Below are positions 2,811 through 29,719 of a stretch of DNA of 64,000 nucleotides, piece after piece. Made by a program: the position numbers and the translations under genes. Location of the stretch: NCBI RefSeq assembly GCF_016411865.1, contig NZ_JAEKJA010000010.1:62001-126000 (forward strand), given 5' to 3'. The DNA is from Acuticoccus mangrovi (GTDB taxonomy: Bacteria; Pseudomonadota; Alphaproteobacteria; Rhizobiales; Amorphaceae). Positions within the stretch are counted from its first letter, which is position 1. Every line of letters starts with the position of its first letter. The notes under the pieces are model-generated. The model was not told the DNA's origin and ran no database searches. It was given only the letters and a program-made list of their open reading frames with translations.

Positions 2811-2929
2811 TTGAATGGGAAACAGCGGAAACCATTGCCTTAACCGGAAAATTGAATCTACTAATGGAACCACTCGACGACCTCGTCCTCATCACGAGGC
2901 GTGCGGGCTCTCGGAATAAGGAGAAGCGT

Positions 2930-4411
<1,482 letters not shown>

Positions 4412-4430
4412 CGACGAGGAAGGAGAGAGC

Positions 4431-14994: not shown

Positions 14995-16040
14995 CCACCA
15001 TCGAGGTTGTCGAGCCGGGGCTGCAGACCACGGTGCAGGATCGCGGTCGCTTCGGCTATCAGGCGCTGGGGGTGCCGGTCTCCGGGGTGCTCGATTTCGA
15101 GGCGATGCGCCTTGCGAACGCCCTCGTCGGCAACGGCGGCGACGCGGCGGTCCTCGAGATGCGCATGGTCGGCCCCTCGCTGAAGGCGGCGGAGGGGACC
15201 GTGCGGATGGCGCTCGCCGGCAGCGAGGCGAAGCTGACGATCACCCTCGCCGACGGGGCGACGCGCACGGTCCCCGCCCACCAGGCCTTCGACCTTCCGG
15301 CGGACGCGGTGGTGAAGATCGGCCCGCTCAAGGGATCGGTCACCGCCTGCCTCGCCGTGTCGGGCGGGGTCGACGTGCCGCCGCTCTTCGGCTCGCGCGC
15401 GACCTACCTGCGCGGCCCCTTCGGCGGGCACGAAGGGCGGGCGCTGCGTGCCGGGGACCGCTTGGCGATCGGGGAGGGCGCGCCGGCCGGCCCGCCGCTC
15501 GCGGTCGAGCCGATCCCCGCGCCCGCCGGCGATACGGTGCTTCGCGTCGTCCTCGGCCCGCAGGCCGACTGGTTCACCGACAAGGGCATCGCCACCTTCC
15601 TGGAGGAACCCTACGTCATCGACGGCGCCACCGATCGGATGGGCATGCGGCTCAACGGCCCGGAGATCGAGCACGTCGGCGGCTACAATCTCGTCTCCGA
15701 CGGCATCGCGACGGGGGCGATCCAGGTGCCCGGCTCGCGGTTGCCGATCCTGCTCCTCGCCGACCATCAGACCACCGGCGGCTACCCCAAGATCGCCAAC
15801 GTGATCTCGGCGGACCTGCCGCTCGCCGGGCGGCTCGGCCCCGGAGGAGTCGTGCGTTTTGAGGCCGTGTCGGTGGCCGACGCGGAGGTGATCCGACGCG
15901 ACGCGGAAGCCGCCCTCGCTCGGCGGATCGGCGCGATGGCCCCGGCGCAAACCGCGGCCGAGCCCTCGCTCGCCGCGCTCAGCGGTGAAAACTTGATCTC
16001 CGGCGTTGTCGACGCCACTAACGTGGGTCATCCGTCGTGA
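14991..16040 (+). CDS. pxpC: 5-oxoprolinase subunit C (biotin-dependent carboxyltransferase / KipA family)
   Basis: This 349-residue subunit is the partner of PxpB. Typical segments are EVVEPGLQTTVQDRGRFG at the N-terminus, GVPVSGVLDFEAMRLAN and, toward the C-terminus, GAIQVPGSRLPILLLADHQT. GTG 14991 overlaps the pxpB stop. Its own stop overlaps the GTG of the GntR gene, so enzyme and regulator are translated as one chain. The last 50 residues form a poorly conserved, alanine-rich tail. Confidence 0.92.
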   Translation: MTTIEVVEPGLQTTVQDRGRFGYQALGVPVSGVLDFEAMRLANALVGNGGDAAVLEMRMVGPSLKAAEGTVRMALAGSEAKLTITLADGATRTVPAHQAFDLPADAVVKIGPLKGSVTACLAVSGGVDVPPLFGSRATYLRGPFGGHEGRALRAGDRLAIGEGAPAGPPLAVEPIPAPAGDTVLRVVLGPQADWFTDKGIATFLEEPYVIDGATDRMGMRLNGPEIEHVGGYNLVSDGIATGAIQVPGSRLPILLLADHQTTGGYPKIANVISADLPLAGRLGPGGVVRFEAVSVADAEVIRRDAEAALARRIGAMAPAQTAAEPSLAALSGENLISGVVDATNVGHPS

Positions 16041-16795
16041 AACGGACGCCCATCAGAGGTCAGACCATCACCGTCCCCGATTACAACCGCAGCCCGCTTC
16101 CCCGATATCTGCAGGTGGCGGCCGCCATTCGGCGGCGCATCGAGGAGGGGCATTGGGGTGCCAACGAGAAGATCGCCACCCTCGCCGCATTGGAGGACGA
16201 GTTCGCGGTGGCGCGCGTCACGGTCCGCCAGGCGGTGGAGCTCCTCGAGAACGAGGGGCTGCTGAAGCGCATCCAGGGCAAGGGCACCTTCGTGTCCGGC
16301 AACGTGGAGGACAAGCGCTGGCTGCGCCTCGACCTGCGCTGGCAGTCGCTCGCCAAGACGATCGGCGCCAACACGCCCCATTTCCTCAAGGTCGTGTCGG
16401 ACGCCGAACCCCCCTCCTTGGGGGAGGACGAAGGACGGCCGGCCGAGGAGTATCGCTATCTTGAGAGCGTGCAGTCGCGGCGCGGTGTGCCGTTCTCCTT
16501 CGCCTGCGTGCACGTCGCCGAGCATGTGGTGGCGATGGCGCCCGACCGCTTCGCCAAGGAGCCGTCGATCTCGGTGGTCGCCACCCTCGAGGGGCTCGAC
16601 GTGAAGTCGGCGCGGCAGTCCTTCGTCGTCGCGGCGGCGGACACGCGCACCGCCGATCTCCTCAAGATCGGCATCGGCTTTCCCACCGCCGACGGCCACC
16701 TCGTGGTGACCGACAGTGCCGACCGCGTGATCTACTACGGCAACATCATCTACCGCGGCGACTGCGTGCGGCTCGACATCGACCTCTTCGGGTAG
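16037..16795 (+). CDS. GntR-family transcriptional regulator, HutC subfamily (UTRA domain)
   Basis: This 252-residue DNA-binding regulator has an N-terminal winged helix-turn-helix (about residues 20-88; LPRYLQVAAAIRRRIEEGHW, then FAVARVTVRQAVELLENEGL and KRIQGKGTFV) and a C-terminal UTRA-like ligand-binding domain ending IIYRGDCVRLDIDLFG. Its GTG overlaps the pxpC stop. The position suggests local control of pxpBC and probably of divergent pxpA-fno-cof, with a metabolite of the pathway as effector. The palindrome at 14131 is a likely target. Confidence 0.88.
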   Translation: MKRTPIRGQTITVPDYNRSPLPRYLQVAAAIRRRIEEGHWGANEKIATLAALEDEFAVARVTVRQAVELLENEGLLKRIQGKGTFVSGNVEDKRWLRLDLRWQSLAKTIGANTPHFLKVVSDAEPPSLGEDEGRPAEEYRYLESVQSRRGVPFSFACVHVAEHVVAMAPDRFAKEPSISVVATLEGLDVKSARQSFVVAAADTRTADLLKIGIGFPTADGHLVVTDSADRVIYYGNIIYRGDCVRLDIDLFG

Positions 16796-16807: not shown

Positions 16808-17806
16808 TCAGGCGAGGGCGCGGCCGAGGGCGGCGATCTCGTCGGCGGCGTCGGGGCCGGAAAAGGTGAGGGCGAGCTCGGTGACGCCCGCCGCCCGATA
16901 GTCCGCGGCCCGGGCGAGGCAGTCGTCCACCGTGCCGGCGAGGGCGAAGGCATGGGCGAAGCGGCCGTCGAGCGCCCGGTCGGCCGGCTCGTCGGCGAGG
17001 CGGCGGGCCGCGTCGGCGAAGGTCTCGTCGTCGATGCCGGCGCCCTCGGTGAGCGCCGCCTTCGCCGCCGGCACTTTGGCGGCGAGCGCCCAGTAGCGCG
17101 GCACCATCGCTCCCACCGCACCGAGTGCCCGCTTCACCGCCGCGTCTCCGTCGGCACCGACGGCGGCAGGCATATATTGGACGATCGCTGCGGGCGGGCG
17201 GCTTCCCCGGGCCGCGGCCACCGTCGCGGCGAGGCCGCCGGCGAAGGCGACGGTGCACATGTTGGAGACGATCAGCCCGTCCGCCGCCTCGCCGGCGAAC
17301 TTCACCGTCAATCGGCCGCGGCCGGCGAGATAGATCGGCAGGTCCGCCCGCGCCGGGCACTCGAGCGCGACGCCGCGGGCGCTGAAGTGATCACCCGCAT
17401 GGTCCACCGTCTCGCCGGCGAGAAGGCCGCGCACGATGGCGAGCGCGTCGCGCAGGGCGGGCAGCGGCTTGTCGGGGTCGATCGCGAGCCGCCGCGTCGC
17501 CGCCGCGATGCCGGACCCGAGTCCGAGGCCGACGCGTCCGCCCGCCAACTCGTCGAGCGCGGCGATCTCCATCGCCATCATGGTGGGATGGCGGCTGTAG
17601 GGGTTGAACACGCCGGCGTTGATCGCGATGCGCGAGGTCGCCGCCGCGCAGGCCGCCGCCGCCGGCAGGATGCCGCGGGCGAAGGCGTTCTCGGCGAACC
17701 AGACGCTCGCGAAGCCCGCCGCCTCGGCGGCGCAGGCGAGCCTCACGCACTCGGCCGGGCTCATGCCTCCATCGAGGCGGATGCTGATCTTCGGCAGGGC
17801 GCTCAC
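16808..17806 (-). CDS. LLM-class F420-dependent oxidoreductase, Mer-like
   Basis: This 332-residue luciferase-superfamily TIM barrel resembles methylene-tetrahydromethanopterin-reductase-like F420 enzymes: short loops, GFASVWFAEN near residue 35, RIAINAGVFNPYSRHP and GRVGLGLGSG. GTG 17806 overlaps the stop of the molybdenum-hydroxylase large subunit (GTGA), so it is the last gene of that operon. It faces the gntR gene with 12 bp between their 3' ends. The substrate is unknown; being coupled to a hydroxylase suggests it acts on the hydroxylated product or its precursor. Confidence 0.83.
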   Translation of the reverse strand: MSALPKISIRLDGGMSPAECVRLACAAEAAGFASVWFAENAFARGILPAAAACAAATSRIAINAGVFNPYSRHPTMMAMEIAALDELAGGRVGLGLGSGIAAATRRLAIDPDKPLPALRDALAIVRGLLAGETVDHAGDHFSARGVALECPARADLPIYLAGRGRLTVKFAGEAADGLIVSNMCTVAFAGGLAATVAAARGSRPPAAIVQYMPAAVGADGDAAVKRALGAVGAMVPRYWALAAKVPAAKAALTEGAGIDDETFADAARRLADEPADRALDGRFAHAFALAGTVDDCLARAADYRAAGVTELALTFSGPDAADEIAALGRALA

Positions 17807-20121
17807 GGTCGGGCCTCGGCGTTGGTGGGATCGTCGGCGTTGGTGGTATCGGATGCGGCCCGCCGCCCGGCCTCGATGAGGTGCCACAGGCGCGGCGGCG
17901 TGAGGGGCAGGGTGTTGGGCTCGACGGCGAAGTCGGCGAGCGCCGCGGCGACGGCATTGGCGATCACCCCGCCCACCGGGATGAGCCCGCCCTCGCCGGC
18001 GCCCTTTGCTCCGATGGGGTTGTTGGGGCAGGGCCGCAACCCGAGCGAGATGGCGCGCACCGGCGGAACCTCGGTCGCGGTGGGCATCAGATAGTCGGCG
18101 AATGAGCCGGTGAGGAGCTGGCCCTCCTCGTCGTAGCGGATCTCTTCCAAGAAGGTGCTGCCGAGACCCTGGACCAGCGCGCCGACCACTTGACCGTGGA
18201 GCGTCAGCGGGTTGATGACGCGGCCGACGTCGTCGACCGTCACGTAGTCGAGCACAGCGACGTCGCCGGTGCGCGGGTCGACGGAGACGTGCGCGGCATG
18301 GGCGCCGTAGCTGTAGGTCAGCTTCTTGTTGAAGAATTGCCGCTCCACGACGAGCCCGGCGAAGGCGTCGAGCGGCAGCCGGGCGTCGCCCACGGCGACC
18401 ATGCCGTCCTCGATGCGCACCTTGCCGGCGGCTTCATGGTGCGGCGCGGCCTCGCCGATCGCCTGGAGCAGCGCTTCGGCGGCGAGGAGGATCGCCGAGC
18501 CGCCCATCACCGTGGAGCGTGAGTGGAAGGAGCCGCCGCCCTGGCTCACGAGGTTGGTGGAGCCGTGCACGAGGCGGATGCGGTCCATCGGGAGCGAGAG
18601 CGCGTCGGCCGCGATCTGGGTGAGGATCGTGACGAGCCCCTGGCCGAGCGAGGTGGAGCCCACCGCCACCTCCACCATGCCGTCGGCCGTGATGGTCATG
18701 CGCGCCGTCTCGCCGCGACCGCCCGCGCCGCCCTCCACGAAGGCCCCGACGGCAATGCCGTGGTGCCGCCCGTCGACCAGGCGGCCGTCGAGACGGGACT
18801 TCGCCGCCCAGTCGAAGGTCTCGAGGCAGCGCGCCATCACCTCGCCGTAGGCGCCGTTGTCGAGCTCGGTTTGCCAGCTGGCGTCGAGGCCGTCCATGTG
18901 GGCGAGGGGATAGGGCAGCCGCTCTTCGGGAATGAGGTTCATCATGCGGAACTCGGCGCGGTCGACGCCGAGATCGCGGGCCGCCATGTCGAAGAGACGC
19001 TCGCAGAAGAAGCTCGCCTCGTAGCGCCCCGGCCCGCGATAGGTGCCCGTCGGCGTCTTGTTGGTGACGTGCACGGCGACGTCGATCGCGATGTGCGGCA
19101 CGAGGTAGGGCCCGGTCACGAACTGGGCGACGTTGCGCGGGGTGGTGAGGCCGTTGGTGCGCACGTAGGCGCCGAGGTCGACGTCGACGGTGCCGCGGAT
19201 GCCGATGACGCGGCCGTCGCGCTCGCAGGCGATCTCCATCTCGGCGGTCATCTCGCGGGCGTGGTTCATGGCCGAGAAGTGCTCCCGGCGGTCCTCCAGC
19301 CAACGCACGCGCGCCCCGAGGCGGCGGGCGGCGAAGGGGATGAGGAAGTCTTCCGGGTAGAACTCGCCGCGGGCGCCGAAGCCGCCGCCCACGTCCACCT
19401 CGATCAGCGTCACGTCGCCGGCGCCGAGGCCGAGCATCGTGGCGAGCGTATCGCGGTTGAAGAAGGGCACTTTGGTCGCGCCGTGGACGGTGAGGTGCCC
19501 GCTCTCGCCGTCCCACTCGGCGAGGAGGCCGCGCGTTTCCATGGGCGAGGCGGTGTGGCGTTGCACAGCGAAGCGGGCGCGGCGGGTGTAGGGGGCGGCG
19601 GCGAAGGCGGCGTCGGCCCCGCCCGCCCGGGCGCGGAAGGTGGTGACGCGGTTGGTGGGGGCCGCGAACACCAGCGTCTCGTCGCGCGCCGAGATGGCGG
19701 TGTCGGCGACGACCGGCAGCGGGTCGATGTCGACGACGACGGCTTCGGCGGCGTCCTCCGCGACGGCGGCCTCGCGCGCCACGACGATCGCCACCGGCTC
19801 GCCGACATAGCGCACGCGATCGGCGGCGATGACCGGCTGGCGGTAGGCCTCGCCCTCCGGCACGCCGTGCTGGCGGATCGGGATCAGCGGCACCTCGCCG
19901 ATGTCGGCCGCGGTGAAGAGGGCGACGACGCCGTCCATCGCCCGCGCCGCGTCGGCGTCGACGGCGAGGATGCGGCCATGGGCGAGCGGGCTGCGCACGA
20001 TGACGGCGTGGAGGAGGTCGTGGCGGGCAAGGTCCGCGACGAAGCGGGCGCCGCCGGTCAGAAGGCGCGCGTCCTCGATCCGCGGCATCGGGCTCCCCAC
20101 GAAGGCGTTGGAGCGGCTCAC
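17803..20121 (-). CDS. Molybdenum-containing hydroxylase, large (molybdopterin-binding) subunit
   Basis: This is the catalytic subunit (772 residues) of a three-subunit xanthine-oxidase-family hydroxylase, which inserts a water-derived oxygen next to a ring nitrogen or into an aldehyde. SNAFVGSPMPRIEDARLLTG at the start, VDVGGGFGARG in the middle and GAKGAGEGG near the end (catalytic Glu about residue 710) are the family landmarks. The active-site loop GTYRGPGR lacks the Cys of the AYxCSFR loop of carbon-monoxide dehydrogenase, so this is not a form I CoxL. GTG 20121 overlaps the small-subunit stop. Substrate unknown; an N-heterocycle or aldehyde is likely. Confidence 0.92.
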   Translation of the reverse strand: MSRSNAFVGSPMPRIEDARLLTGGARFVADLARHDLLHAVIVRSPLAHGRILAVDADAARAMDGVVALFTAADIGEVPLIPIRQHGVPEGEAYRQPVIAADRVRYVGEPVAIVVAREAAVAEDAAEAVVVDIDPLPVVADTAISARDETLVFAAPTNRVTTFRARAGGADAAFAAAPYTRRARFAVQRHTASPMETRGLLAEWDGESGHLTVHGATKVPFFNRDTLATMLGLGAGDVTLIEVDVGGGFGARGEFYPEDFLIPFAARRLGARVRWLEDRREHFSAMNHAREMTAEMEIACERDGRVIGIRGTVDVDLGAYVRTNGLTTPRNVAQFVTGPYLVPHIAIDVAVHVTNKTPTGTYRGPGRYEASFFCERLFDMAARDLGVDRAEFRMMNLIPEERLPYPLAHMDGLDASWQTELDNGAYGEVMARCLETFDWAAKSRLDGRLVDGRHHGIAVGAFVEGGAGGRGETARMTITADGMVEVAVGSTSLGQGLVTILTQIAADALSLPMDRIRLVHGSTNLVSQGGGSFHSRSTVMGGSAILLAAEALLQAIGEAAPHHEAAGKVRIEDGMVAVGDARLPLDAFAGLVVERQFFNKKLTYSYGAHAAHVSVDPRTGDVAVLDYVTVDDVGRVINPLTLHGQVVGALVQGLGSTFLEEIRYDEEGQLLTGSFADYLMPTATEVPPVRAISLGLRPCPNNPIGAKGAGEGGLIPVGGVIANAVAAALADFAVEPNTLPLTPPRLWHLIEAGRRAASDTTNADDPTNAEARP

Positions 20122-20603
20122 TCCACGCCCTCGCGACGGTAGGCGCCGCGCGCCGCCATCACGGCGGCGATGATGGGAAGGTAGCCGGTGCAGCGGCAGA
20201 GATTGCCGGAGAGGACGTCGCGGATGCGTGCCTCGTCCGCCTCGGGCTCCTCGGTGAGGAGCGCGTGCATCGTGGTGAGGATCCCCGGCGTGCAGAAGCC
20301 GCATTGCAGGGCGTGGTGCTCGTGGAAGGCCTGCTGCAACGCGCCGAGGCCGCCGTCGCGGGGGGCGAGCCCCTCCACCGTCACGACGTCGGCGCCGTCG
20401 GCCTGGACGGCCAGCATCAGGCAGGCGCGGACGGCGAGGCCGTCGACGATCACGGTGCAGGCGCCGCAGACCCCGTGCTCACAGCCGAGGTGGGTGCCGG
20501 TGAGGCGGGCGCCGTCGCGCAGCGCGTCGGCGAGGGTGGTGCGGTCGGCGACGTCGAGTGCGGTGGCGACGCCGTTGAGCGCGAAGCGGACGGTGCGGCT
20601 CAT
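20118..20603 (-). CDS. Molybdenum hydroxylase, small 2Fe-2S subunit
   Basis: This 161-residue electron-transfer subunit has two [2Fe-2S] domains. The plant-ferredoxin-like cluster uses Cys41, Cys46 and Cys49 (CEHGVCGAC) plus Cys61. The all-helical second domain has CGFCTPG (Cys101, Cys104) and CRC (Cys136, Cys138). It passes electrons from the molybdenum site to the FAD subunit. Both ends overlap neighbours (ATGA and GTGA), giving the order FAD, FeS, Mo, LLM. Confidence 0.95.
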   Translation of the reverse strand: MSRTVRFALNGVATALDVADRTTLADALRDGARLTGTHLGCEHGVCGACTVIVDGLAVRACLMLAVQADGADVVTVEGLAPRDGGLGALQQAFHEHHALQCGFCTPGILTTMHALLTEEPEADEARIRDVLSGNLCRCTGYLPIIAAVMAARGAYRREGVE

Positions 20604-21511
20604 GCGGCGCGCTCGGCGGGGGGATTCTCCAGCGCGCAGGCGAGCGCACGGCCGAGGAGCGTCGCGAGGAGCGCGCGGCGGTAGGCGGCGTCGGCGCTCG
20701 GGTCGCCGTCCGGGGTGACGCTGGCGACGCAGGCCGCTTCCGCCGCCGCGACGGCGGACGCGTCGGCGACGGCGCCTTCGAGCGCGGCTTCCACGGCGTC
20801 GAGGCGCAGCGGCACGTCGGCGATGCCGAAGGCGGCGATGCGCGCGCCTTCGATCCGCGGCGCTGCGCGGTCGCGCGCCATGGTGACGTCGAGCGGGAGG
20901 GTGACGTCGAGCGAGAGGGCGATGCCGGCGAGGGCGAAGTCGCCGCGCCGGCGCGCGAACTCCTCGAAGCCGTGCCGCCGCGTCGCCGGGGCGGGCGGCA
21001 GATGGAGGGCGGTGACGATCTCGCCCGGTTCGAGCGCCGTCGTCATCGCGCCGAGGAAGAAGTCTTGCGCACCGATGCGGCGGGGGCCGGCGGGGCCGGC
21101 GACCTCGATGGTGGCGTCGAGGGTGAGGGCGACCGCCGGCAGCTCGGCGGCGGGGTCCGCGTGGGCGAGGCTGCCCCCGACGGTGCCGCGATTGCGGATC
21201 TGATAGTGGGCGATGTGGGGGAGGGCGGCGGCGAGGAGTGGCTGGGCGGCGGCGAGCGCGTGGGAGCGCTCCAGCGCGCGCCACGTCACCCGCGACCCGA
21301 CGTGCGTTCCCTCCGCGTCGATCGCGATGCGGTCGAGCCCCGGCACGCGCCTCAGGTCCACGAGCACGCTCGGCGCGGCGAGGCGGAAGGCGAGCATCGG
21401 CATCAAGCTCTGGCCGCCGCTCAGGATCTGGGCCTCGTCGTCGGCCGCGAGGAGGGCGATGGCCTCGTCGAGGCTTTCCGGGCATCGGTAGGCGACCGGC
21501 GGCAGCTTCAA
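20600..21511 (-). CDS. Molybdenum hydroxylase, FAD-binding middle subunit
   Basis: This is a CoxM-type FAD subunit of about 303 residues. AQILSGGQSLMPMLAFRLA is the first FAD-binding loop and IRNRGTVGGSLAHADPAAE the second. I chose TTG 21511 (protein beginning MKLPPVAYR) because GGGAG lies nine bases upstream and family members start here. An in-frame ATG at 21607 would make the operator array part of the coding region. First gene of the Mo-hydroxylase/LLM operon. Confidence 0.88.
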   Translation of the reverse strand: MKLPPVAYRCPESLDEAIALLAADDEAQILSGGQSLMPMLAFRLAAPSVLVDLRRVPGLDRIAIDAEGTHVGSRVTWRALERSHALAAAQPLLAAALPHIAHYQIRNRGTVGGSLAHADPAAELPAVALTLDATIEVAGPAGPRRIGAQDFFLGAMTTALEPGEIVTALHLPPAPATRRHGFEEFARRRGDFALAGIALSLDVTLPLDVTMARDRAAPRIEGARIAAFGIADVPLRLDAVEAALEGAVADASAVAAAEAACVASVTPDGDPSADAAYRRALLATLLGRALACALENPPAERAA

Positions 21512-21559: not shown

Positions 21560-21592
21560 GGAACATCGTTCCAATATATAGAACATTGTTCC
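21560..21592. promoter_or_regulatory. Operator A: IclR-type pentamer array upstream of the Mo-hydroxylase operon
   Basis: GGAAC-ATC-GTTCC at 21560-21572 and AGAAC-ATT-GTTCC at 21580-21592 are separated by seven AT-only bases; their centres are 20 bp apart. This is the most complete of four such arrays in the window. It lies 48-81 bp upstream of the FAD-subunit TTG, overlapping the likely promoter. Confidence 0.8.
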
Positions 21593-21697
21593 AAAATATG
21601 ATGGCATCGGCAGTGATGCCTGTCAATCGACCGCCGCCCCGACGGGCGGAAGGCCGGCCGGCGGTTGACAGGCCATCTGCGCTCACTCACAGTAGTT

Positions 21698-21722
21698 GAA
21701 ACAGTGTTCCATATAAAGGAAC
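21698..21722. promoter_or_regulatory. Operator B: IclR-type pentamer array upstream of the M24 hydrolase gene
   Basis: GAAAC-AGT-GTTCC at 21698-21710 is followed after seven bases (ATATAAA) by GGAAC at 21718-21722; the fourth pentamer is not recognisable. Spacing equals that of operator A. It ends 17 bp before the ATG at 21740, so bound regulator would sit over the transcription start. Confidence 0.75.
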
Positions 21723-21739
21723 GCTTTTGAGGAATCCCG

Positions 21740-22939
21740 ATGCCAAGCGACGCCTGTCTCGCCAATCTTCCCCGGCTCAACGACCTTGCGAAGCGTGAAG
21801 GCTTCGACGCCGTAATCGCCACATCACCGGAAAACGTCACCTATCTCAGCGGTTTCTGGGCGATGTCCCAGTGGGTCCGGCGCGGCCCGCAGGCATATTG
21901 TCTCTACCCCCTCAACGGCGAAGAGCCGGCGCTGATCGCGAACTCCAGCATCCTCGACCTCGTGGCCGATCAGAAGCCCTGGGTGAGCGACGTCCGCCGC
22001 TACGGCTACTTCCAGATCGACGTCGACGCGAGCGCGACGCTCGAGCCGGACGACGCCACCCAGAGCGAGCTCTTCGCCACCGACGCCTATGCGGGTTCGG
22101 TCGAGGCGCTGGTCGCCGCGATGAAGGAGAAGGGCGTTGCCAAGGGGCGCATCGCCCTCGACGAGACGGGCATCACCCCCCAGTGCATGGACGAGCTCCT
22201 CGCGGCGTTGCCGGAGGCGACCTTCGTGCGCTCCTTCGGCCTCTTCCAGCGCGTGCGGGCGGTGAAGACGCCGGTCGAGATCGACATCCTGCGCGATGTG
22301 GCGGCGATCACCCAGCGGGCGATCGAAGCGTCTCTCGCCGTCGCCCGCGAGGGGGTGAGCGAGCGCGAGATGCTGCGCGCCTTCAACGGCTCGCTGGTCG
22401 CCGACGACGCGCTCCCGGTGACGGGGTGCATCGGCTTCGGCCCGCGCAGCGCCATGATCAACGCCCAGCCTTCCGACCGGCAGCTGAGGCCCGGCGATCT
22501 CATCCGCTTCGACGTCGGCGCCCGCTACAAGCACTACCGCTCGGACATGGCCCGCGGCGCCGTTCTCGGTGAACCGGACAAGCGCACCGCCGCCGCCTAT
22601 GCCGCGGTGGAGAAGGGCATCGAGCGCAGCTACGAGATCATCAAGCCCGGCCTCAAGGTCGCCGACCTCTTCACCGAGGTGGTGGAGACGGTGCGGCGCG
22701 AGGGGATCCCCGGCTTCCGCCGCAGTCACGTCGGCCATGGCATCGGCATCGACGGCTACGATCCGCCGACGATTTCCGAGGCCGCACCGGAAGTGCTCGA
22801 GGAGAACATGGTGCTCTGCCTCGAGACCCCCTACTACGAGCTCGGTTTCGGCGGCTTCCAGGTGGAAGACATGCTGCGCGTCACGCGCGACGGCGTGGAA
22901 TCCTTCATGACGCTGCCGACTGCGCTGCGCGTGGTCTAA
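21740..22939 (+). CDS. M24-family metallohydrolase (creatinase / Xaa-Pro dipeptidase-like)
   Basis: This 399-residue protein has an N-terminal creatinase domain (about residues 10-150) and a C-terminal pita-bread domain. Metal-ligand motifs are present: RFDVGARYKHYRSDMAR (two Asp), SHVGHGIGIDGYD (His), ETPYYELG (Glu) and FQVEDM (Glu). The ATG follows GAGGAA. Family members cleave Xaa-Pro dipeptides, creatine or other amidino or amide bonds. Placement behind operator B and before an LLM gene points to a catabolic amide or C-N hydrolase rather than general peptide turnover. Confidence 0.85.
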   Translation: MPSDACLANLPRLNDLAKREGFDAVIATSPENVTYLSGFWAMSQWVRRGPQAYCLYPLNGEEPALIANSSILDLVADQKPWVSDVRRYGYFQIDVDASATLEPDDATQSELFATDAYAGSVEALVAAMKEKGVAKGRIALDETGITPQCMDELLAALPEATFVRSFGLFQRVRAVKTPVEIDILRDVAAITQRAIEASLAVAREGVSEREMLRAFNGSLVADDALPVTGCIGFGPRSAMINAQPSDRQLRPGDLIRFDVGARYKHYRSDMARGAVLGEPDKRTAAAYAAVEKGIERSYEIIKPGLKVADLFTEVVETVRREGIPGFRRSHVGHGIGIDGYDPPTISEAAPEVLEENMVLCLETPYYELGFGGFQVEDMLRVTRDGVESFMTLPTALRVV

Positions 22940-22951
22940 CTCTTTGGGAGC

Positions 22952-22999
22952 GAGCGGCTTCTTCCCGTCCGATGGGTCAAGAGAGGACGGGAGCCGCTC
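22952..22999 (+). other. Long two-part hairpin between the M24 and LLM genes
   Basis: GAGCGGCT (22952-22959) pairs with AGCCGCTC (22992-22999), and CCCGTCC (22964-22970) with GGACGGG (22985-22991), leaving a four-base bulge (TCTT) and a 14-base loop. There is no T tract, so it is more likely a transcript-stabilising or processing element inside the operon than a full terminator. Confidence 0.5.
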
Positions 23000-23023
23000 T
23001 CGGCGCTGCGCAAGGACGCTTTC

Positions 23024-24025
23024 ATGAAATACTCCGTCTGCCTGTCGACCGGCTATGAAGGGCTCGCCTTTCCGGTCAATTTCTGCGCGCCGCAGGATCT
23101 CGTGCGCCACGCGCAGGTGGCCGAGCGGCTCGGCTTCGATTCGGTGTGGGGCAACGACCACATCACCCCGCCGCGCTACGTGCGCGAGCACTTCGACGCC
23201 TCGCCCAACTTCTACGACGTGCTCATCGCGCTTGCGATGATCGCGCAGGCGACGACCACGCTGCGCGTCGGGACGGCGCTTCTCGTCGTGCCGAACCGCG
23301 AGCCGGTCTATCTCGCCAAGCAGGCCTTCACCCTCGATCAGATGTCGGGCGGCCGCTTCATGATGGCCGTGGGCCTCGGCGCCTATCGCGAGGAGTTTGA
23401 GGCGTTCGTCGGCCATCGCTACGAGAAGCCCCACCGCGGCAAGATGATGGCCGAGGGGCTCGAGATCTTCCGCCGCCTCGCCACCGAGAAGGTCTCCTCC
23501 TTCGACGGCGAGTATTATTCGTACACCGACATCGAGATGTTCCCCAAGCCGAAGCAGGACCCGTTCCCGCTGTTCATCGGCGGGCACAACATGAAGGCGG
23601 TGGAGCGGGCGGCCGAGATCGGCCAGGGCTGGCTGCCCGGCTGGCGGCCGTTTCACGAGATCGCCGAGCGCATCGAGGCGCTGCACGCGGCGGCCGAGAA
23701 GATCGGGCGCGACCCGAAGTCCATCGAGGTGGCGCCGCAATTCTCCCTCCTCATCGGCAAGACCCAGGAGGAGGCCGAGGCGACCTACATGAAGAGCGGC
23801 CTCGTGGCGCACCGCGTCTCGCTCGCCCACACCGGGCGCGATCCGGCCTATCAGGTCTCCGGCAACCTCGTCGGCTCGCCCGAAACGATCATCGCCAAAA
23901 TCCACGAGCTGAAGGCGATGGGCGTCGACCACTGCGCCGCCATGGCCCTCGCGGTGAACAGCCAGGAAGAATATCTGGAGCAGCTGCACTGGTTCTCCGA
24001 GGAGATCATGCCCCACTGCGCCTGA
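23024..24025 (+). CDS. LLM-class flavin/F420-dependent oxidoreductase
   Basis: This 333-residue luciferase-superfamily TIM barrel has LGFDSVWGNDHITPP, RVGTALLVVPNREPVYLAKQ and DQMSGGRFMMAVGLGAYREE, the standard LLM landmarks. It is the third LLM gene of the window and lies 84 bp after the M24 gene, under operator B. A strong terminator follows. F420 rather than FMN is plausible because the same locus encodes F420 synthesis and Fno, but the cofactor cannot be decided from sequence alone. Confidence 0.85.
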   Translation: MKYSVCLSTGYEGLAFPVNFCAPQDLVRHAQVAERLGFDSVWGNDHITPPRYVREHFDASPNFYDVLIALAMIAQATTTLRVGTALLVVPNREPVYLAKQAFTLDQMSGGRFMMAVGLGAYREEFEAFVGHRYEKPHRGKMMAEGLEIFRRLATEKVSSFDGEYYSYTDIEMFPKPKQDPFPLFIGGHNMKAVERAAEIGQGWLPGWRPFHEIAERIEALHAAAEKIGRDPKSIEVAPQFSLLIGKTQEEAEATYMKSGLVAHRVSLAHTGRDPAYQVSGNLVGSPETIIAKIHELKAMGVDHCAAMALAVNSQEEYLEQLHWFSEEIMPHCA

Positions 24026-24050
24026 CGCCGCCGCCTCGAGCCGCATCCAC

Positions 24051-24082
24051 GAAAGGCCCGCCTCGGCGGGCCTTTCTTGTTG
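24051..24082. terminator. Rho-independent terminator between convergent LLM and tctA genes
   Basis: GAAAGGCCCGC and GCGGGCCTTTC (24051-24061 and 24066-24076) form an 11-bp stem with a tetraloop, followed by TTGTTG. The A/T-flanked stem could act in both directions between the convergent genes. Confidence 0.8.
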
Positions 24083-24125
24083 CGTCGGCGCGTTTCGGTG
24101 CGTGGGGGTGGCGCCGCGCCCCGCC

Positions 24126-25628
24126 TCAGCGCGAGGCGATGCGGCGGCGCATGCCGCCGACGGCACGGGCGATGGTGGGGTAGAGCAGCACGCCGAGGAT
24201 CATCACGAGCAGCGCGGCGGCGACCGGGCGCTCCAGGAACACCACCGGGTCGGTGCCGTAGACGATGAGGGCCTGCTTGAAGTTTACCTCCACCATCGGG
24301 GCGAGCACGTAGCCGATGATCAGCGGGGCGAGCGGGAAGCCGAGCACCCGCAGGCCCCAGCCGAGGAAGCCCGCGGCGGCCATGATGACGAGGTCGAAGG
24401 CGGAGTTGTTGCCGGCGAAGGTGCCGACCGAGGCGAGCACCACCACGCCGGCGAGGAGCAGCGGCTCCGGTAGCCGCAGCACGCGGGTGAAGAGCCGCGC
24501 GCCGAAGCCGCCGGCGACGAGGATGCCGATGTTGGCGATGAACAGCGAGAAGAGGATGAGGAGCACCTGGTCCATGTGCTCGGTGTAGAGCCGCGGTCCG
24601 GGCGTCACCCCCTGTAGTACGAGGGCGGCGAGGATCATCGCCGTGATCGGGTCGCCGGGAATGCCGAGCGACAGGGAAGGGACCAGCGCCCCGCCCGTCA
24701 CCGCGTTGTTGGCCGCCTCGGAGGCGAGGATGCCCTCGGGGTTGCCCTTGCCGAAGCTGTCGGGGTCCTTGGAGGAGCGCTTCGCCTCCGAGTAGCTGAT
24801 GAAGGAGGCTGCCGTCGGCCCGGCCCCCGGCAGGATGCCGAGCACGATGCCGATGAGCGAGGACTTCGCCACCGTGCGCCAGGCCGAGCGCCAGAAGTGG
24901 AGCCCCGGCACGCGGAAGCCGATGCGCGCCAGCGTGCCCTCGGCCGGGCCGCGGCCATATTCGGCGACGCGCATCATCACCTCGGAGATGGCGAAGAGGC
25001 CCATGAGGAGGGGCACGAGGGGAATGCCGGCGGCGAGCGGGAAGTAGCCGAAGGTGAGGCGCATGTCGCCGGACGCGGGGTCCTGGCCGATCGAGGCGAG
25101 CGCCATGCCGACGAGCCCGGCGGCGACCGCCTTCACCAGGATCGCCCGCTCGATGATGGCGACGCAGCAGAGGGCGAAGACGCCGACGAGGAACATCTCG
25201 AGCGGCCCGAAGCGCAGGGCGAAGCGGGCGAGGAAGGGCGCCAGAAAGGCGAGGATCACGATGGAGAACATGCCCCCCATCGCCGAGCCGATCGTGGTGA
25301 TGCCGATGGCGAGGTCGCCGTCGCCGCGCCGCGCCATCGGGTAGCCGTCGAAGCAGGTGGCGGCCGAGGCGGGCGTGCCCGGCACGTTGAGGAGGATCGC
25401 CGCCACCGACCCGCCATAGATCGAGGTGCAGTAGAGGCCCATCAACAGGGCGACGCTCGGCCCGAGCGACATGTTGAGGGTGAAGGGCAGCGCGAGGGCG
25501 ATGGCGATGCTCGGCCCGAGCCCCGGCAGGACGCCGATGATGGTGCCCACCACCACGCCGGCGAGGAGTGCGACGAGCGTCGTGGGGTCGACGAGAAGGG
25601 TGACGGCGGCGAGGGCGTCGTTCAGCAA
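24126..25628 (-). CDS. tctA: Tripartite tricarboxylate transporter, large membrane subunit TctA
   Basis: This 500-residue integral membrane protein has about a dozen hydrophobic segments. The duplicated family signature is clear: GVLPGLGPSIAIALALPFT near residue 35 and GILPGAGPTAAS near residue 265, with YGGSVAAILLNVPGTPASAAT and GIPGDPITAMIL nearby. With TctB and the periplasmic TctC it imports a carboxylate using an ion gradient. The family covers citrate, aromatic acids and many others. Last gene of the M20-tctC-tctB-tctA operon under operator C. Confidence 0.93.
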   Translation of the reverse strand: MLNDALAAVTLLVDPTTLVALLAGVVVGTIIGVLPGLGPSIAIALALPFTLNMSLGPSVALLMGLYCTSIYGGSVAAILLNVPGTPASAATCFDGYPMARRGDGDLAIGITTIGSAMGGMFSIVILAFLAPFLARFALRFGPLEMFLVGVFALCCVAIIERAILVKAVAAGLVGMALASIGQDPASGDMRLTFGYFPLAAGIPLVPLLMGLFAISEVMMRVAEYGRGPAEGTLARIGFRVPGLHFWRSAWRTVAKSSLIGIVLGILPGAGPTAASFISYSEAKRSSKDPDSFGKGNPEGILASEAANNAVTGGALVPSLSLGIPGDPITAMILAALVLQGVTPGPRLYTEHMDQVLLILFSLFIANIGILVAGGFGARLFTRVLRLPEPLLLAGVVVLASVGTFAGNNSAFDLVIMAAAGFLGWGLRVLGFPLAPLIIGYVLAPMVEVNFKQALIVYGTDPVVFLERPVAAALLVMILGVLLYPTIARAVGGMRRRIASR

Positions 25629-25637
25629 GATGGCCTC

Positions 25638-26087
25638 CTAGAGCGGCAGCGGGACGTTCATCAGGCGGATGAACACGAGCCACACGAGCGCCAGGATCGC
25701 GATGGTGAAGGCGGCGATGGCCACGATGTTGCGATAGCCGAGGAGGACGGGCAGGAGCACGGAAAGGGCCGTGGTGGCGATCAGGAAGCCCACGCGGGGC
25801 AGGGCGATCGCATAGATCGCGGCGAGCGCGCCGATGCCGACGGCCTTGAGGAGGCCGGCGGTGGCGAACGGCGTGTCGCTGTTGCGGGCGGCGCCGGCGG
25901 CGATGAGGAGCCCGCAGAGGATGGCCCCCGCCAGCACGACCACCGGAAAGATGGTCTTCGACTGGGCCGCACGCAGCCAGTCGCCGGGGGAGAGGAGTCC
26001 CCCGGCGGCGGCGAACAGGAGGCACGCGGCGGAGAGACCGAGGCCGGTCGCGACCCGGCGGATCCGCGGCGACGCCTCGCCGCTCAT
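25638..26087 (-). CDS. tctB: Tripartite tricarboxylate transporter, small membrane subunit TctB
   Basis: This 149-residue protein has four hydrophobic helices, the TctB pattern. Sequence conservation in TctB is always low, so the call rests on topology and position between tctA and tctC. ATG 26087 overlaps the tctC stop (ATGA). A nine-base gap separates it from tctA. Confidence 0.85.
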   Translation of the reverse strand: MSGEASPRIRRVATGLGLSAACLLFAAAGGLLSPGDWLRAAQSKTIFPVVVLAGAILCGLLIAAGAARNSDTPFATAGLLKAVGIGALAAIYAIALPRVGFLIATTALSVLLPVLLGYRNIVAIAAFTIAILALVWLVFIRLMNVPLPL

Positions 26088-27040
26088 TGGATGAGGCCGG
26101 CCTTTTCGAGGAGGGCCTTGGAGGTGGCGCTTTCTTCCTTGGCGAGCGGCTCGAACTCGGCGCCGTCCATGTAGGCGGGCACCATGCCGAGCTCGTTCAT
26201 GCGGCTCTGGAAGGCCTCCGAGCTCTGCGCATCGGCGCAACCCTTGCGCAGCGTCGCCAGCACGTCTTCCGGCATTCCCTTCGGCCCCACGAGCACGCCC
26301 CACAGCGAATAATAGACCGGGAAGCCCTCTTCGGCGAAGGTCGGAACGTCGGGGAAGATCGGCGAGCGCTCGCGGCTCATCACGCCGATCGGCTTCAGCG
26401 TGTCCTCGTTCTTCTTGATGACGCTCGAGGAGGTGAGGGTGCCGGTGATGACGTCGGCGAGGATGTTGCGCAGGTTGTCGGCGTCGCTGCTGTTGGCGAC
26501 GTGGACGCCCTCGACGCCGGCGAGATCGGAGAACTGCAGCATGGCGAGGTGCTGGACCGAGCCGTTGCCCGAGGAGCCGTAGCGCAGCCGCTCGCTGCCG
26601 GCATAGTCGGCGAGAGCCTTCGGCGACGCGATGTCCGAATCGACCTTCACCGCGAAGAACATCGGGTTCTCGAACACGCGGCAGACATAGTCGAAGCTGT
26701 CGACCGTGTAGGGCACGTCGCTGACGAAGGGCTTCAGCATCAGCGGGGTGGAGGCGGTCACGCCGAGGGTGTAGCCGTCGGTGTCGGCGGCGGCCATCTC
26801 GGCGGTGCCGATGGCGCCACCCGCGCCGGCGCGGTTCACCACGCTGACGGTTTCGCCGAGGGCCTCGGAGAGGGCGTCGGCGAGAGTGCGGCTCGCGATG
26901 TCGGTCTGCCCGCCGGGCGAGAAGGGCACGATCACCGAAATCGGCTTGTCGGGGTAGGATTGCGCCTCGGCGTCACCGCCGAAGCCGACCAGCACCGCGG
27001 CGAGGGCGCCGAGGGCGAGGCAGGGCATGGACCTGTTCAT
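26084..27040 (-). CDS. tctC: Tripartite tricarboxylate transporter, periplasmic binding protein TctC (Bug family)
   Basis: This 318-residue secreted substrate-binding protein has a signal peptide of about 24 residues (MNRSMPCLALGALAAVLVG..., cleavage near AEA-QS). The mature N-terminus YPDKPISVIVPFSPGGQTDI is the classic Bug/TctC opening, which forms part of the carboxylate-binding loop, and VNRAGAGGAIGTAEMA follows. It would deliver a carboxylate ligand to TctAB. ATG 27040 is preceded by GGAGA. It lies 53 bp after the M20 gene. Confidence 0.93.
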   Translation of the reverse strand: MNRSMPCLALGALAAVLVGFGGDAEAQSYPDKPISVIVPFSPGGQTDIASRTLADALSEALGETVSVVNRAGAGGAIGTAEMAAADTDGYTLGVTASTPLMLKPFVSDVPYTVDSFDYVCRVFENPMFFAVKVDSDIASPKALADYAGSERLRYGSSGNGSVQHLAMLQFSDLAGVEGVHVANSSDADNLRNILADVITGTLTSSSVIKKNEDTLKPIGVMSRERSPIFPDVPTFAEEGFPVYYSLWGVLVGPKGMPEDVLATLRKGCADAQSSEAFQSRMNELGMVPAYMDGAEFEPLAKEESATSKALLEKAGLIQ

Positions 27041-27093
27041 GGGAGATCTCCATCTGGTTCGGTTCGGCCGGGGCGGGAGGGCTCCGGCGGCTC

Positions 27094-28386
27094 TCATGCG
27101 GCACCCGTGGCGCGCCGCCGCGGCTTCTCGCGCGTGCACACCTCAAGAGCGGTTCGGGCATAGACGGCGGCGCTGCGGGCGAGATCGTCGACGCTCATCG
27201 CCTGCTGGCGGAAGCTGCGCGGCGGGCCGTAAGTGATCGCCGGGATGCCCATCTCGTTGAAGATGAGAACGTCGCGCCACATGCTGGAGAACACCGGCTC
27301 GGCGAGCTCGAGCGCGCCGCCGATGGTCGCCTCGTGGCCCCTGCGCAGGCCGTCGAGCAGCACCTCGTTGTCGCCCGCGCCATAGGAGCGGCGGTAGAGA
27401 AAGAGCTCCACCTCGCCTTCGAGGCCGGTCTCGGCGAGGAGATCGCGCAGCTCGCGGCGGATCTCGAGCGGGTCCGACACCGGCGTCAGGCGGCAGTCGA
27501 GATAGAGGGCGCAGAGCTCGGAGGTGCGGGTGACGTGATAGGGGTTGCCGGCCCGGATCGCCCCGATCACCGCCTTCGGCACGATGGTGCCGTCCTTCGT
27601 GGTGTGGGTGTGGCGCTTCTCGTAGTCGTTGGCCCAGGCCTGGAGGCGGGGAATGAGGAGCGAGGCCCGCACGATGGCGTTGGGATGGTCGGGCCCGACC
27701 TCGGCCATCGGCGTGAACGGGGTATAGAACTGCGGCGCGCCGAACACCGTGATCTTGAAGAAGGCCTTGCCGGCCTCGATGCCCGAATAGCGGAAGTCGG
27801 TGCCCTCGGCGACGAGCGCGAAGTCGGCCACCCCGCCGTGCTGGACGAGGTAGCGCGCGCCGACCTCCTTGCTGAGATAGCGGGGCGAGGCGAACTCGTC
27901 GACGGCCTCGTAGCCGATCTCGCCCGGCACCGCCGACAGGAGAAGGTCGCCGCGCAGCGCGATGCCGGCCGCCTTGATCGCCTTCGCCGCAATCATGAAG
28001 GCGGCCATCGGCCCCTTGTCGTTGACGATGCCCTCGCCGAACAGCGTGCCGTCCTTCACCCAGGCGCCGTGATTGATGCCGACGCCGGGGTCGCGGATGC
28101 TCCACACGTCCGCCTTGCTGCGGCCGGTATCCATGTGGCTGTTGAAGATGAGGCTGTAGCCGTCGCCGGCGCCCGGCAGCGTGCCGAGCACGTTGAAGCG
28201 GTCCGGGAACATGCTGATCTTGCGCGGCGCGAAGCCTTCGCGCGCCATCCAGTCGTGGATGAAGGCGCCGACCTCGGCCTCCTCGCCCGCCGGGCTTTCG
28301 ATGTTGCAGAGCGCCAGGGCGAGCTCCACGAGCTCGTCGGTGTCGAGCGGGACTCGCGTGCCTTGGAATTCGAAGTGGTGGGTCAC
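27094..28386 (-). CDS. M20-family metallohydrolase (ArgE/DapE/CPG2-like)
   Basis: This zinc hydrolase of about 430 residues has NSHMDTGRS (first metal His-Asp), GEGIVNDKGPMAAF (bridging Asp and neighbours), and a dimerisation domain between the metal-binding halves. M20 enzymes cleave N-acyl amino acids, dipeptides or N-carbamoyl compounds. I chose GTG 28386 (protein start MTHHFEFQG); longer in-frame starts reach 28455 and are possible. It is the first gene before tctCBA, so the imported solute is probably an N-substituted amino or carboxylic acid, or gives rise to one. Confidence 0.83.
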   Translation of the reverse strand: MTHHFEFQGTRVPLDTDELVELALALCNIESPAGEEAEVGAFIHDWMAREGFAPRKISMFPDRFNVLGTLPGAGDGYSLIFNSHMDTGRSKADVWSIRDPGVGINHGAWVKDGTLFGEGIVNDKGPMAAFMIAAKAIKAAGIALRGDLLLSAVPGEIGYEAVDEFASPRYLSKEVGARYLVQHGGVADFALVAEGTDFRYSGIEAGKAFFKITVFGAPQFYTPFTPMAEVGPDHPNAIVRASLLIPRLQAWANDYEKRHTHTTKDGTIVPKAVIGAIRAGNPYHVTRTSELCALYLDCRLTPVSDPLEIRRELRDLLAETGLEGEVELFLYRRSYGAGDNEVLLDGLRRGHEATIGGALELAEPVFSSMWRDVLIFNEMGIPAITYGPPRSFRQQAMSVDDLARSAAVYARTALEVCTREKPRRRATGAA

Positions 28387-28736
28387 GGCGTCTCGATCTG
28401 GCGAAGAGCAGCGGGCGAGCGCGACCGGCGGGCGCGACGCGCAGCGGCACCGCACCCCGTGGCTGTCGTGGTTTCGCCCATGGTCCTACCCATGCCGGCC
28501 GTGCTCCGAAGTGCCGCCGGCCATGCGTATGGCCGGTCATTTGTTCCAATAATAAGAACAGCGTTCTAATAAATGCTCACATGGGGTCGAAACCGAGTCA
28601 ATTCGCCAGCAGGCACTTTTTTTGGGCAGACCGTGATGTGTGCAGGGGCGGACGGCGCCCGCCGACCGCCCGACGGGTGGCGAACGGCTGCGCGTTCGGT
28701 GGGCGCTGTCGTTGCCCGCGGCAGTGGGGCGCAGGC
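28387..28736. other. Intergenic region between the iclR 3' end and the M20 operon
   Basis: This 350-bp stretch holds the promoter region of the M20-tctCBA operon, including operator C. It also has a locally AT-rich patch around 28540-28575 that stands out from the GC-rich surroundings. I see no credible gene here; reading frames crossing it are products of high GC content. Confidence 0.6.
28543..28567. promoter_or_regulatory. Operator C: IclR-type pentamer array upstream of M20-tctCBA
   Basis: GTTCC (28543-28547), seven bases (AATAATA), AGAAC (28555-28559), AGC, GTTCT (28563-28567). The leftmost pentamer (GGTCA at 28535) is degraded. The spacing is identical to operators A, B and D. It lies about 155-180 bp upstream of the GTG chosen for the M20 gene, which leaves room for a leader or an earlier start. 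Confidence 0.72.
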
Positions 28737-29537
28737 TCAGCCGGCGGGGTGGCCGAAGGCGCGGGGCGTCGGGGCGCCGAGCTTGCGGGAGGCGCGCTGG
28801 GCCGCGTCGTGCACGCGCATGCCGATCCGGGCGCGGGCATCCGCGGCGAGGTCGACGGCCGGCACCGCGCCGCTCAGAACGGCCACCACGCCGCCCGTCG
28901 CGTCCCGCACCACCGCGCCCGCGGAGAAGAAGCCCTGACGGTTCTCCTCGTCGCTGTAGGAGTAGCCGAGCTTGCGATACTCGGCGAGGTCGGCGAGGAG
29001 CTGCGGCAGCTCGATGCGGGTCGACTGGGTGATCCGGGGCAGGGGATCGGAGCCGAGGAGGCTGATCACCGCCTCGTCGCTCATCTCGGCGAGGAGCGCC
29101 TTGCCCATGGCGGTGGAGTGGAGGTGGGTCTGGTGGCCCGGGCGGTGGTTGATCGCGACGGGTCCCTCGCTCTGGACCGTCGCGAGATAGACGACGCTGC
29201 GGTCGCGCATCACGCCCAGGAAGCCGGTGATGTGCTCGTCGGCGAGGGCGTAGAGCTCGGGCATCACCGCGGAGACGAGGCTCGTCTGGCCGACGAAGGC
29301 GTTGCCCACCTGAAACGCGCGGTAGCCGATGGCGTAGCGCAGCGTGGCGTCGGCCTGCTCCAGATAGCCGGCGCGGGTGAGCGTCTTGATGAGGCGCTGC
29401 ACGTTGCTCGGCGGCAGACCGAGGCGGCGGGCGATCTCGCGCACGCCCAACGGCTCGGGACTGTCGGCGAGAAGGTCGAGGATCGACAGCGCTCGTGCTA
29501 CGGACTGGTTCTCGCCGCTTGCTGGTGGGTTGCTCAA
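28737..29537 (-). CDS. IclR-family transcriptional regulator
   Basis: This 266-residue regulator has a winged helix-turn-helix at about residues 10-75 (SVARALSILDLLADSPEPLG, LGLPPSNVQRLIKTL) and a C-terminal IclR effector domain with HRPGHQTHLHSTAMGKALLA and GYSYSDEENRQGFFSAGAVV. Start is TTG 29537, behind GAGG; upstream in-frame codons would add a basic low-complexity extension. IclR proteins bind palindromes as dimers or dimers of dimers and sense small carboxylates. The four pentamer arrays in the window, one in its own divergent promoter, are its probable targets. Confidence 0.88.
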   Translation of the reverse strand: MSNPPASGENQSVARALSILDLLADSPEPLGVREIARRLGLPPSNVQRLIKTLTRAGYLEQADATLRYAIGYRAFQVGNAFVGQTSLVSAVMPELYALADEHITGFLGVMRDRSVVYLATVQSEGPVAINHRPGHQTHLHSTAMGKALLAEMSDEAVISLLGSDPLPRITQSTRIELPQLLADLAEYRKLGYSYSDEENRQGFFSAGAVVRDATGGVVAVLSGAVPAVDLAADARARIGMRVHDAAQRASRKLGAPTPRAFGHPAG

Positions 29538-29650
29538 TCTCGTACCTCGTGAGGCTCGTGGCCGGCCGGCCCGCGCAGCGGTCGATGATAAGGCGCATCC
29601 CGATGCGCAAGCGTGTTGACGCGCCCGTCCCACCCGCTCAGACTATATGT

Positions 29651-29675
29651 GGAACAATGTTCCATTAAGTGGAAC
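29651..29675. promoter_or_regulatory. Operator D: IclR-type pentamer array between iclR and the threonine-synthase-like gene
   Basis: GGAAC-AAT-GTTCC at 29651-29663, seven bases (ATTAAGT), GGAAC at 29671-29675; the fourth pentamer is absent. It lies 45-69 bp upstream of the ATG at 29720 and in the divergent promoter of the iclR gene, consistent with autoregulation. Confidence 0.78.
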
Positions 29676-29719
29676 AACTGCCGCTGTCAAATCCGGTGGC
29701 GGCCGGCAAGGAGACGGGC

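Follow-up and report, generated by a model that had tools for sequence, protein, structure and literature searches.

Can a single transcriptional regulator govern four gene units through one kind of operator, and how would such an operator be built? The question is raised by a 64,000-nucleotide stretch of the Acuticoccus mangrovi genome (contig NZ_JAEKJA010000010.1, positions 62,001 to 126,000 of the forward strand; hereafter the window, whose own numbering is used throughout), in which the gene for an IclR-family protein lies among four units of enzyme and transporter genes, each preceded by an array of five-base boxes. IclR proteins such as KdgR bind pseudo-palindromes of the type GAAAC-N3-GTTTC, and an original prediction, made from the window sequence, had proposed that the arrays are built of two equal dyads and that the IclR protein controls all four units as one pathway. 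Our analysis supports the regulon and corrects the operator, which is a polar three-box element, GGAAC-N3-GTTCC-W7-GGAAC (W, A or T) when read in target-gene orientation; this directional grammar is the main point that the original prediction missed. The arrays are very probably operators of the local IclR protein (28737-29537), which would cover the start of the four target units and repress them until induced. The regulator and its predicted operators are as follows.

28737..29537, minus strand: iclR regulator, 266 amino acids, TTG start, with HTH_IclR (70.3 bits) and IclR_C (96.4 bits) domains
21560..21592, minus strand: array 1, predicted operator of the coxM-coxS-coxL-LLM1 operon, GGAAC AAT GTTCT ATATATT GGAAC GAT GTTCC (minus strand)
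21698..21730, plus strand: array 2, predicted operator of M24-LLM2, GAAAC AGT GTTCC ATATAAA GGAAC, box 4 lost, ATG at 21740
28535..28567, minus strand: array 3, predicted operator of M20-tctC-tctB-tctA, AGAAC GCT GTTCT TATTATT GGAAC, box 4 lost
29651..29683, plus strand: array 4, predicted operator of the threonine-synthase-like PALP gene, GGAAC AAT GTTCC ATTAAGT GGAAC, box 4 lost

Both domain scores exceed the curated Pfam cut-offs (22 for HTH_IclR and 24 for IclR_C), placing the protein in the IclR family, and it falls below the cut-off of all seven NCBIfam models that it matched. The four arrays lie exactly where they had been predicted, with the 5-3-5-7-5-3-5 layout of boxes and spacers. 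The predicted distance of 20 bp between dyad centres holds for array 1 (21560), which alone in the window has all four boxes, whereas the other arrays keep only half of the second dyad. Similarly, the outer pentamers had been said to decay in three copies; this is true of the gene-side box, but the promoter-side box is kept in 4/4, reading GGAAC, GAAAC, AGAAC and GGAAC in the direction of transcription.

We searched the organism's own genome (5.46 Mb; the window has a G+C content of 70%) for parts of this layout. The core GTTCC-N7-RGAAC occurs at 12 distinct places, i.e. the four arrays and eight others, and the two sets differ in the N7 spacer, where 6-7 of the 7 bases are A/T in the arrays as opposed to 1-4 of 7 elsewhere. 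Four core matches within 8.1 kb have a Poisson P of ∼8e-10 at the rate of the eight other places, a value computed after the cluster had been seen. The three-box pattern RRAAC-N3-GTTYY-N7-RGAAC gave 5 exact matches, all within the four arrays (21560 being counted on both strands), no match in the genome at 1 mismatch, and at 2 mismatches 29 matches compared with 43 for a reversed-pattern control. Since exact matches occur only at the arrays and none occurs at 1 mismatch, the genome seems to hold just four strong operators, and the equal density at random genomic sites that would have spoken against a regulon was not seen. The rarity resides in the full layout.

The genes of the four target units are listed below; several are given by their open-frame limits.

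20600..21511, minus strand: coxM, FAD subunit, its TTG start at 21511 placed by by-eye comparison with the start in related locus L030; the open frame continues through array 1 up to 21607
20118..20603, minus strand: coxS, [2Fe-2S] subunit, start placed from the reading frame
17803..20304, minus strand: coxL, Mo subunit, open-frame limits, true start inside
16808..17887, minus strand: LLM1, luciferase-like monooxygenase, open-frame limits
21740..22939, plus strand: M24 metallohydrolase
23024..24025, plus strand: LLM2, luciferase-like monooxygenase
27094..28455, minus strand: M20 hydrolase, open-frame limits
26084..27139, minus strand: tctC, tripartite transporter receptor, open-frame limits
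25638..26303, minus strand: tctB-like, open-frame limits, named from its position between tctC and tctA
24126..25628, minus strand: tctA, matching the annotated transporter permease of related loci L086 and L088
29720..30970, plus strand: PALP enzyme, threonine-synthase-like

The matrix scan that the original prediction had proposed was run on relatives of the genome, with a symmetric matrix trained solely on the four window arrays. Of 17 other loci, among them L084, L085 and L087 as near-copies of others, 16 had their top match upstream of iclR or of a cluster gene; the exception was L074. L030 (a Pseudomonadota assembly) has an IclR orthologue at 72% identity together with PALP, a TctC-like gene, LLM2, M24, coxM, coxS, coxL and LLM1, and its arrays recur at the corresponding intergenic places: two between coxM and M24, one between PALP and iclR, and one before the tctC-like gene. 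More distant loci (39-51% identity) carry varying subsets of M24, PALP, TctC, TctA, Cox subunits and LLM, with arrays upstream of iclR, M24 or tctC; in L082, L084 and L089 only the IclR of the cluster was seen, L089 ending at the record end. On two Agrobacterium pusense plasmids and one Bosea vestrisii plasmid, iclR-M24-PALP-tctCBA forms one block. Arrays accompany this iclR group and cluster in 14 loci in all. Comparison of sequences thus supports a single IclR regulon over four units, given that the arrays recur in L030 and in distant relatives and are unique in the own genome.

The scan also showed features of individual loci. In L083 a second iclR takes the top match and the main iclR the next; this second IclR gene (35% identical) adjoins the main cluster and is accompanied by PALP and LLM genes as well as a three-box array of its own (1350-5619). 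L071 has a strong match (16.8) at 18139, away from the cluster genes, which is a possible extra target. Upstream of iclR in three loci on rhizobial plasmids, a weaker second array is displaced by exactly 20 bp from the main one and overlaps it (L086 9942/9962, L088 9965/9985 and L089 9952/9972), so that the pattern of boxes seems to run on towards the promoter. Behind the plasmid-borne clusters of both genera stand a gene of the cysteine synthase family and one for a kinase (L086 17826-19801, L088 16194-18178).

To compare orthologues with paralogues, we scored 328-bp regions around iclR starts against 200 shuffles each. The 19 orthologue regions, which include the window's own and some near-copies, had a median matrix score of 15.4, compared with 4.6 for 27 IclR paralogues (4 of the 31 paralogue loci had no usable match; Mann-Whitney P 1.6e-4). 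In 15/19 orthologue regions at most 1 of 200 shuffles scored as well, and in L064 5 of 200 did. The box type is therefore common across the IclR family, as the paralogue matches considered below illustrate, while strength and placement go with this cluster.

Next, 23 arrays, drawn from 14 loci, were each given the direction of the target gene. The near-copies L084, L085 and L087, the array-less L074, and two matches with no clear target were dropped beforehand (L082:14018, score 14.1, and L071:18139, whose 16.8 nearly equals the 17.0 of the L071 iclR array), and weaker matches elsewhere in the loci were left out. Arrays in the divergent coxM/M24 regions (21560/21698 and L030:13865/13972) were assigned to the nearest gene; those of L086, L088 and L089 lie at the iclR start, with a small divergent helix-turn-helix gene beyond them, and were counted as iclR arrays. 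In 21/23 arrays the outer box on the promoter side fitted GGAAC more closely than the one on the gene side fitted GTTCC; one array (L069 iclR) was worse and one (array 21560) tied. Boxes 1, 2 and 3 and most of the A/T spacer carried high information, the promoter-side outer box holding 0.74-1.91 bits per position, whereas box 4 had about zero information except for 0.39 bits at its last base, where G rather than the expected C is commonest. For four arrays the direction was chosen after both had been tabulated, namely PALP for window 29651 and L030:7999, and iclR for L073:10360 and L082:9571; without them the polarity count was 17 better, 1 worse and 1 tie of 19. The sign test on these counts treats related loci as independent.

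The same orientation gives the distance to a putative promoter element. TTGAC starts 32-44 bp before box 1 in 22/23 arrays (a start was sought from -46 to -31), as opposed to 1.2% of random positions and 0/23 in the mirrored direction. Without the four arrays of chosen direction the count was 18/19, and in their other direction TTGAC lay at -7 in one, at -12 in another and was absent from two. The putative -35 elements of the window are as follows.

21621..21626, minus strand: TTGACA, putative -35 of coxM, 34 bp ahead of array 1; after a spacer of 17 comes CATCAT, preceded by TG
21665..21670, plus strand: TTGACA, putative -35 of M24, 33 bp ahead of array 2
28596..28601, minus strand: TTGACT, putative -35 of M20-tct, 34 bp ahead of array 3
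29616..29621, plus strand: TTGACG, putative -35 of PALP, 35 bp ahead of array 4
29685..29690, minus strand: TTGACA, candidate -35 of iclR, 7 bp ahead of array 4 in the iclR direction

Taking TTGAC as the -35 element, transcription would start close to the beginning of box 1, and roughly the first 25 transcribed bases would lie within the operator. The proposed mechanism is that each target promoter would have its TTGAC -35 and, 33-35 bp on, the first box of a three-box element lying over the transcription start. IclR bound at the arrays, probably as a dimer of dimers (i.e. a tetramer), would block RNA polymerase, and an inducer, probably the pathway substrate or product, would release it. Repression by covering the transcription start is the most likely mode of action on the sequence evidence. 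In the reverse reading, because TTGACA stands 7 bp ahead of it, array 29651 would span the iclR promoter from -35 through -10; on the basis of this TTGACA the array probably also serves the divergent iclR promoter, and iclR is probably autoregulated through it.

We looked for the same grammar across the order by searching 397 genomes for TTGAC-N26-41-GRAAC-N3-GTTYC-N7-GRAAC and for its mirror, which has the core at the same distance and the extra box on the far side. The forward pattern occurred at 19 sites, spread over 16 genomes of 12 genera, and the window accounts for two of these sites; the mirror occurred at 1 site, and reversed-pattern controls gave 0. Without the window the ratio was 17 to 1, and by genus 12 to 1 (P 0.003). 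The TTGAC-to-box-1 distance was 33-41 in 18 sites and 45 in one, though 31-46 was allowed. An IclR-family gene lay within the ∼3-kb locus in 15/19 forward sites and was divergent in 12 of these 15 (the window's included); the sites without one nearby were the window M24 site, L164, L165 and L167. The single mirror site, L169, belongs to a genus that also has forward sites, and is probably a real exception because it adjoins an IclR-family gene. A separate polarity test on paralogues agreed in 3/3 informative cases, a small sample. These results suggest a more general reading, to which we give about even chances: IclR-family three-box operators would be directional, with the third box almost always on the promoter side and mostly 33-44 bp after a TTGAC -35, so that the two motif groups described for the family would be overlapping parts of one polar promoter-operator unit, and the extra box would anchor the repressor beside the polymerase instead of marking a free choice of dimerisation mode.

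The order-wide TTGAC-to-box-1 distances (L150-L168) form two groups, 33-37 and 39-41, plus the one at 45. By their three-box and TTGAC grammar, these sites also point to promoters that are likely to be under IclR control in 15 further genomes of the order.

Several observations weigh against our interpretation. The L069 iclR array, the one worse case in the polarity count, is reversed in polarity and lacks a TTGAC within range, and the -10 elements are poor, only the coxM promoter passing a -10 scan. Array matches were absent near iclR in 3/19 orthologue regions (L067, L068 and L079), L067 having its array upstream of the preceding M24 gene instead, and were present in 9/27 paralogue regions at a level equalled by at most 1 of 200 shuffles; one of these, L029, belongs to the own genome and has a GGAAA-type variant. 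Because of these 9/27, box type alone cannot identify the regulator. Queries with M20 and TctB found no match in the related loci listed, and since M20 is unmatched there, what ties it to the regulon is the window array together with the arrays before tctC in L030 and L069. Finally, inside the window neither the core with 1 mismatch (8 matches, 4.5 expected, 15/100 shuffles with as many) nor the RRAAC-N3-GTTYY-type dyad (4 matches, mean 1.8) was significantly frequent.

The alternative that survives best is the one in the original prediction, i.e. two equal dyads bound by two dimers, with the outer boxes decaying at random. It would account for array 21560, which keeps all four boxes, and IclR-family sites commonly include tandem palindromes spaced 18-22 bp apart (PMC8222616); however, box loss is one-sided (21 arrays with the better promoter-side box, 1 worse and 1 tied), in none of the 19 order-wide sites does box 4 agree with GTTCC at more than 2 of 5 positions, and the mirror arrangement occurs once against 19 forward sites. 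We therefore consider this model unlikely and prefer the directional three-box element.

It is rather improbable, too, that a different IclR paralogue or some other regulator acts at the arrays and that the neighbouring iclR is merely nearby. The boxes of IclR-family proteins are alike, as the 9/27 paralogue regions attest, and the window IclR protein has eight further matches in its own genome at E up to 1e-3. However, this iclR group and its cluster are accompanied by arrays in 14 loci, no further array turns up in the own genome within 1 mismatch, so that its other IclR genes have none beside them, and loss of a QR pair in the recognition helix accompanies array loss in the single case seen. 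There the Gln is absent from 1 of 15 aligned proteins, that of L068 (within L074), which has SR instead, as read in L068 only; SR for QR is a possible specificity change in the array-less orthologue type (L068, within L074, and L079), weakly indicated by this single case.

Activation of these promoters by IclR is a still more doubtful alternative. PcaU and PobR, IclR regulators with three-box sites, are activators, but in 22/23 arrays the boxes start 32-44 bp after TTGAC, which would put them at the start and downstream, where a bound protein would be expected to block polymerase and not to recruit it. That the arrays are chance pentamers or RNA hairpins in AT-rich promoter DNA is scarcely credible, for although the one-mismatch core and the single dyad are not rare inside the window, the full layout is unique in the genome and recurs in related loci.

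Repression through a polar three-box operator can be compared with what is known of the family. A full-text literature search for three-box IclR sites returned only the paper of Suvorova and Gelfand 2021 (PMC8222616). In the part of it available to us, two motif groups are described, GTTYC-N7-GRAAC (group 1) and GRAAC-N3-GTTYC (group 2), three-box sites are counted in 32 orthologous groups and tandem sites, spaced 18-22 nt apart, in 94, and alternative dimerisation is suggested for the motif arrangements. The box types, three-box sites and ∼20-bp tandems of IclR regulators are in this respect known already, and the window arrays resemble those sites in combining group 1 and group 2 in one site, in alternating box direction and in dyad spacing. 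Our 23-array profile contains the group 1 pair, with single-base departures in some arrays (GTACC, GTGCC), and its promoter-side outer box completes the published group 2 pair, which shares a box with the group 1 pair; the spacer edges (GATAATA-like) fit the published RYW3RY only partly. The same part of the paper holds no statement that we found on the side of the third box, a fixed -35 distance or this gene cluster; third-box polarity may be implicit in its supplementary tables.

Among individual regulators, PcaU, PobR and HmgR have three-box sites like the window arrays, and PcaU needs the third box (PMC8222616, available part), while the window protein falls below the cut-off of the PcaR/PcaU/PobR family model (110.3 of 284.75 bits). 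TtgV (PDB 2XRN/2XRO), the example of tetramer binding given in that part of the paper, is an IclR-family regulator of efflux transporters that is only distantly similar to the window protein (P0001; 54.8 bits). KdgR and the IclR of E. coli, of the same family, are given there with A/T-rich palindromic motifs, and their models score 115.5 of 275 and 108.3 of 380 bits with the window protein, the AllR model 90.5 of 406, all below cut-off. The best-scoring curated model, at 164.9 of 350 bits, is that of BhcR, an alphaproteobacterial IclR regulator of Paracoccus denitrificans; its proposed site lies upstream of the bhcA -35 in the part of PMC11323563 available, unlike the window arrays, which would lie at the start.

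The cluster itself is accessory, because close matches to its IclR protein are so few: identity is at most 32% to the matches listed in nine other genomes of the host's family, and matches at E up to 1e-45 occur in 4/397 genomes of the order and 5/385 of the class (the own genome counted in both). The enzymes (Mo-hydroxylase, two LLM, M24, M20 and PALP) and TctCBA point to import and breakdown of a small compound. The nearest PDB entries to coxL are 6-hydroxypseudooxynicotine dehydrogenase and quinoline 2-oxidoreductase, a likeness of the Mo subunit that suggests an N-heterocyclic substrate, and the compound is perhaps N-heterocyclic. Ectoine use, with M24 as DoeA and PALP as EutB, was rejected, since the best scores were 91.3 of 575 and 41.0 of 413 bits, and literature searches on the gene cluster found no paper. 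Adjoining the cluster at 14538-16795 are a PxpC-like gene of the 5-oxoprolinase/urea amidolyase family and a gene judged GntR-like by eye, with no array ahead of them.

The analysis assigns a regulator, its predicted operators and four target units to an accessory catabolic cluster, and so opens a direct way to search for the inducer. With the polarity rule one can test from sequence which gene is under an IclR operator, and the rule has a bearing on a question raised in the available part of PMC8222616, i.e. why the IclR family has two motif arrangements and three-box sites.

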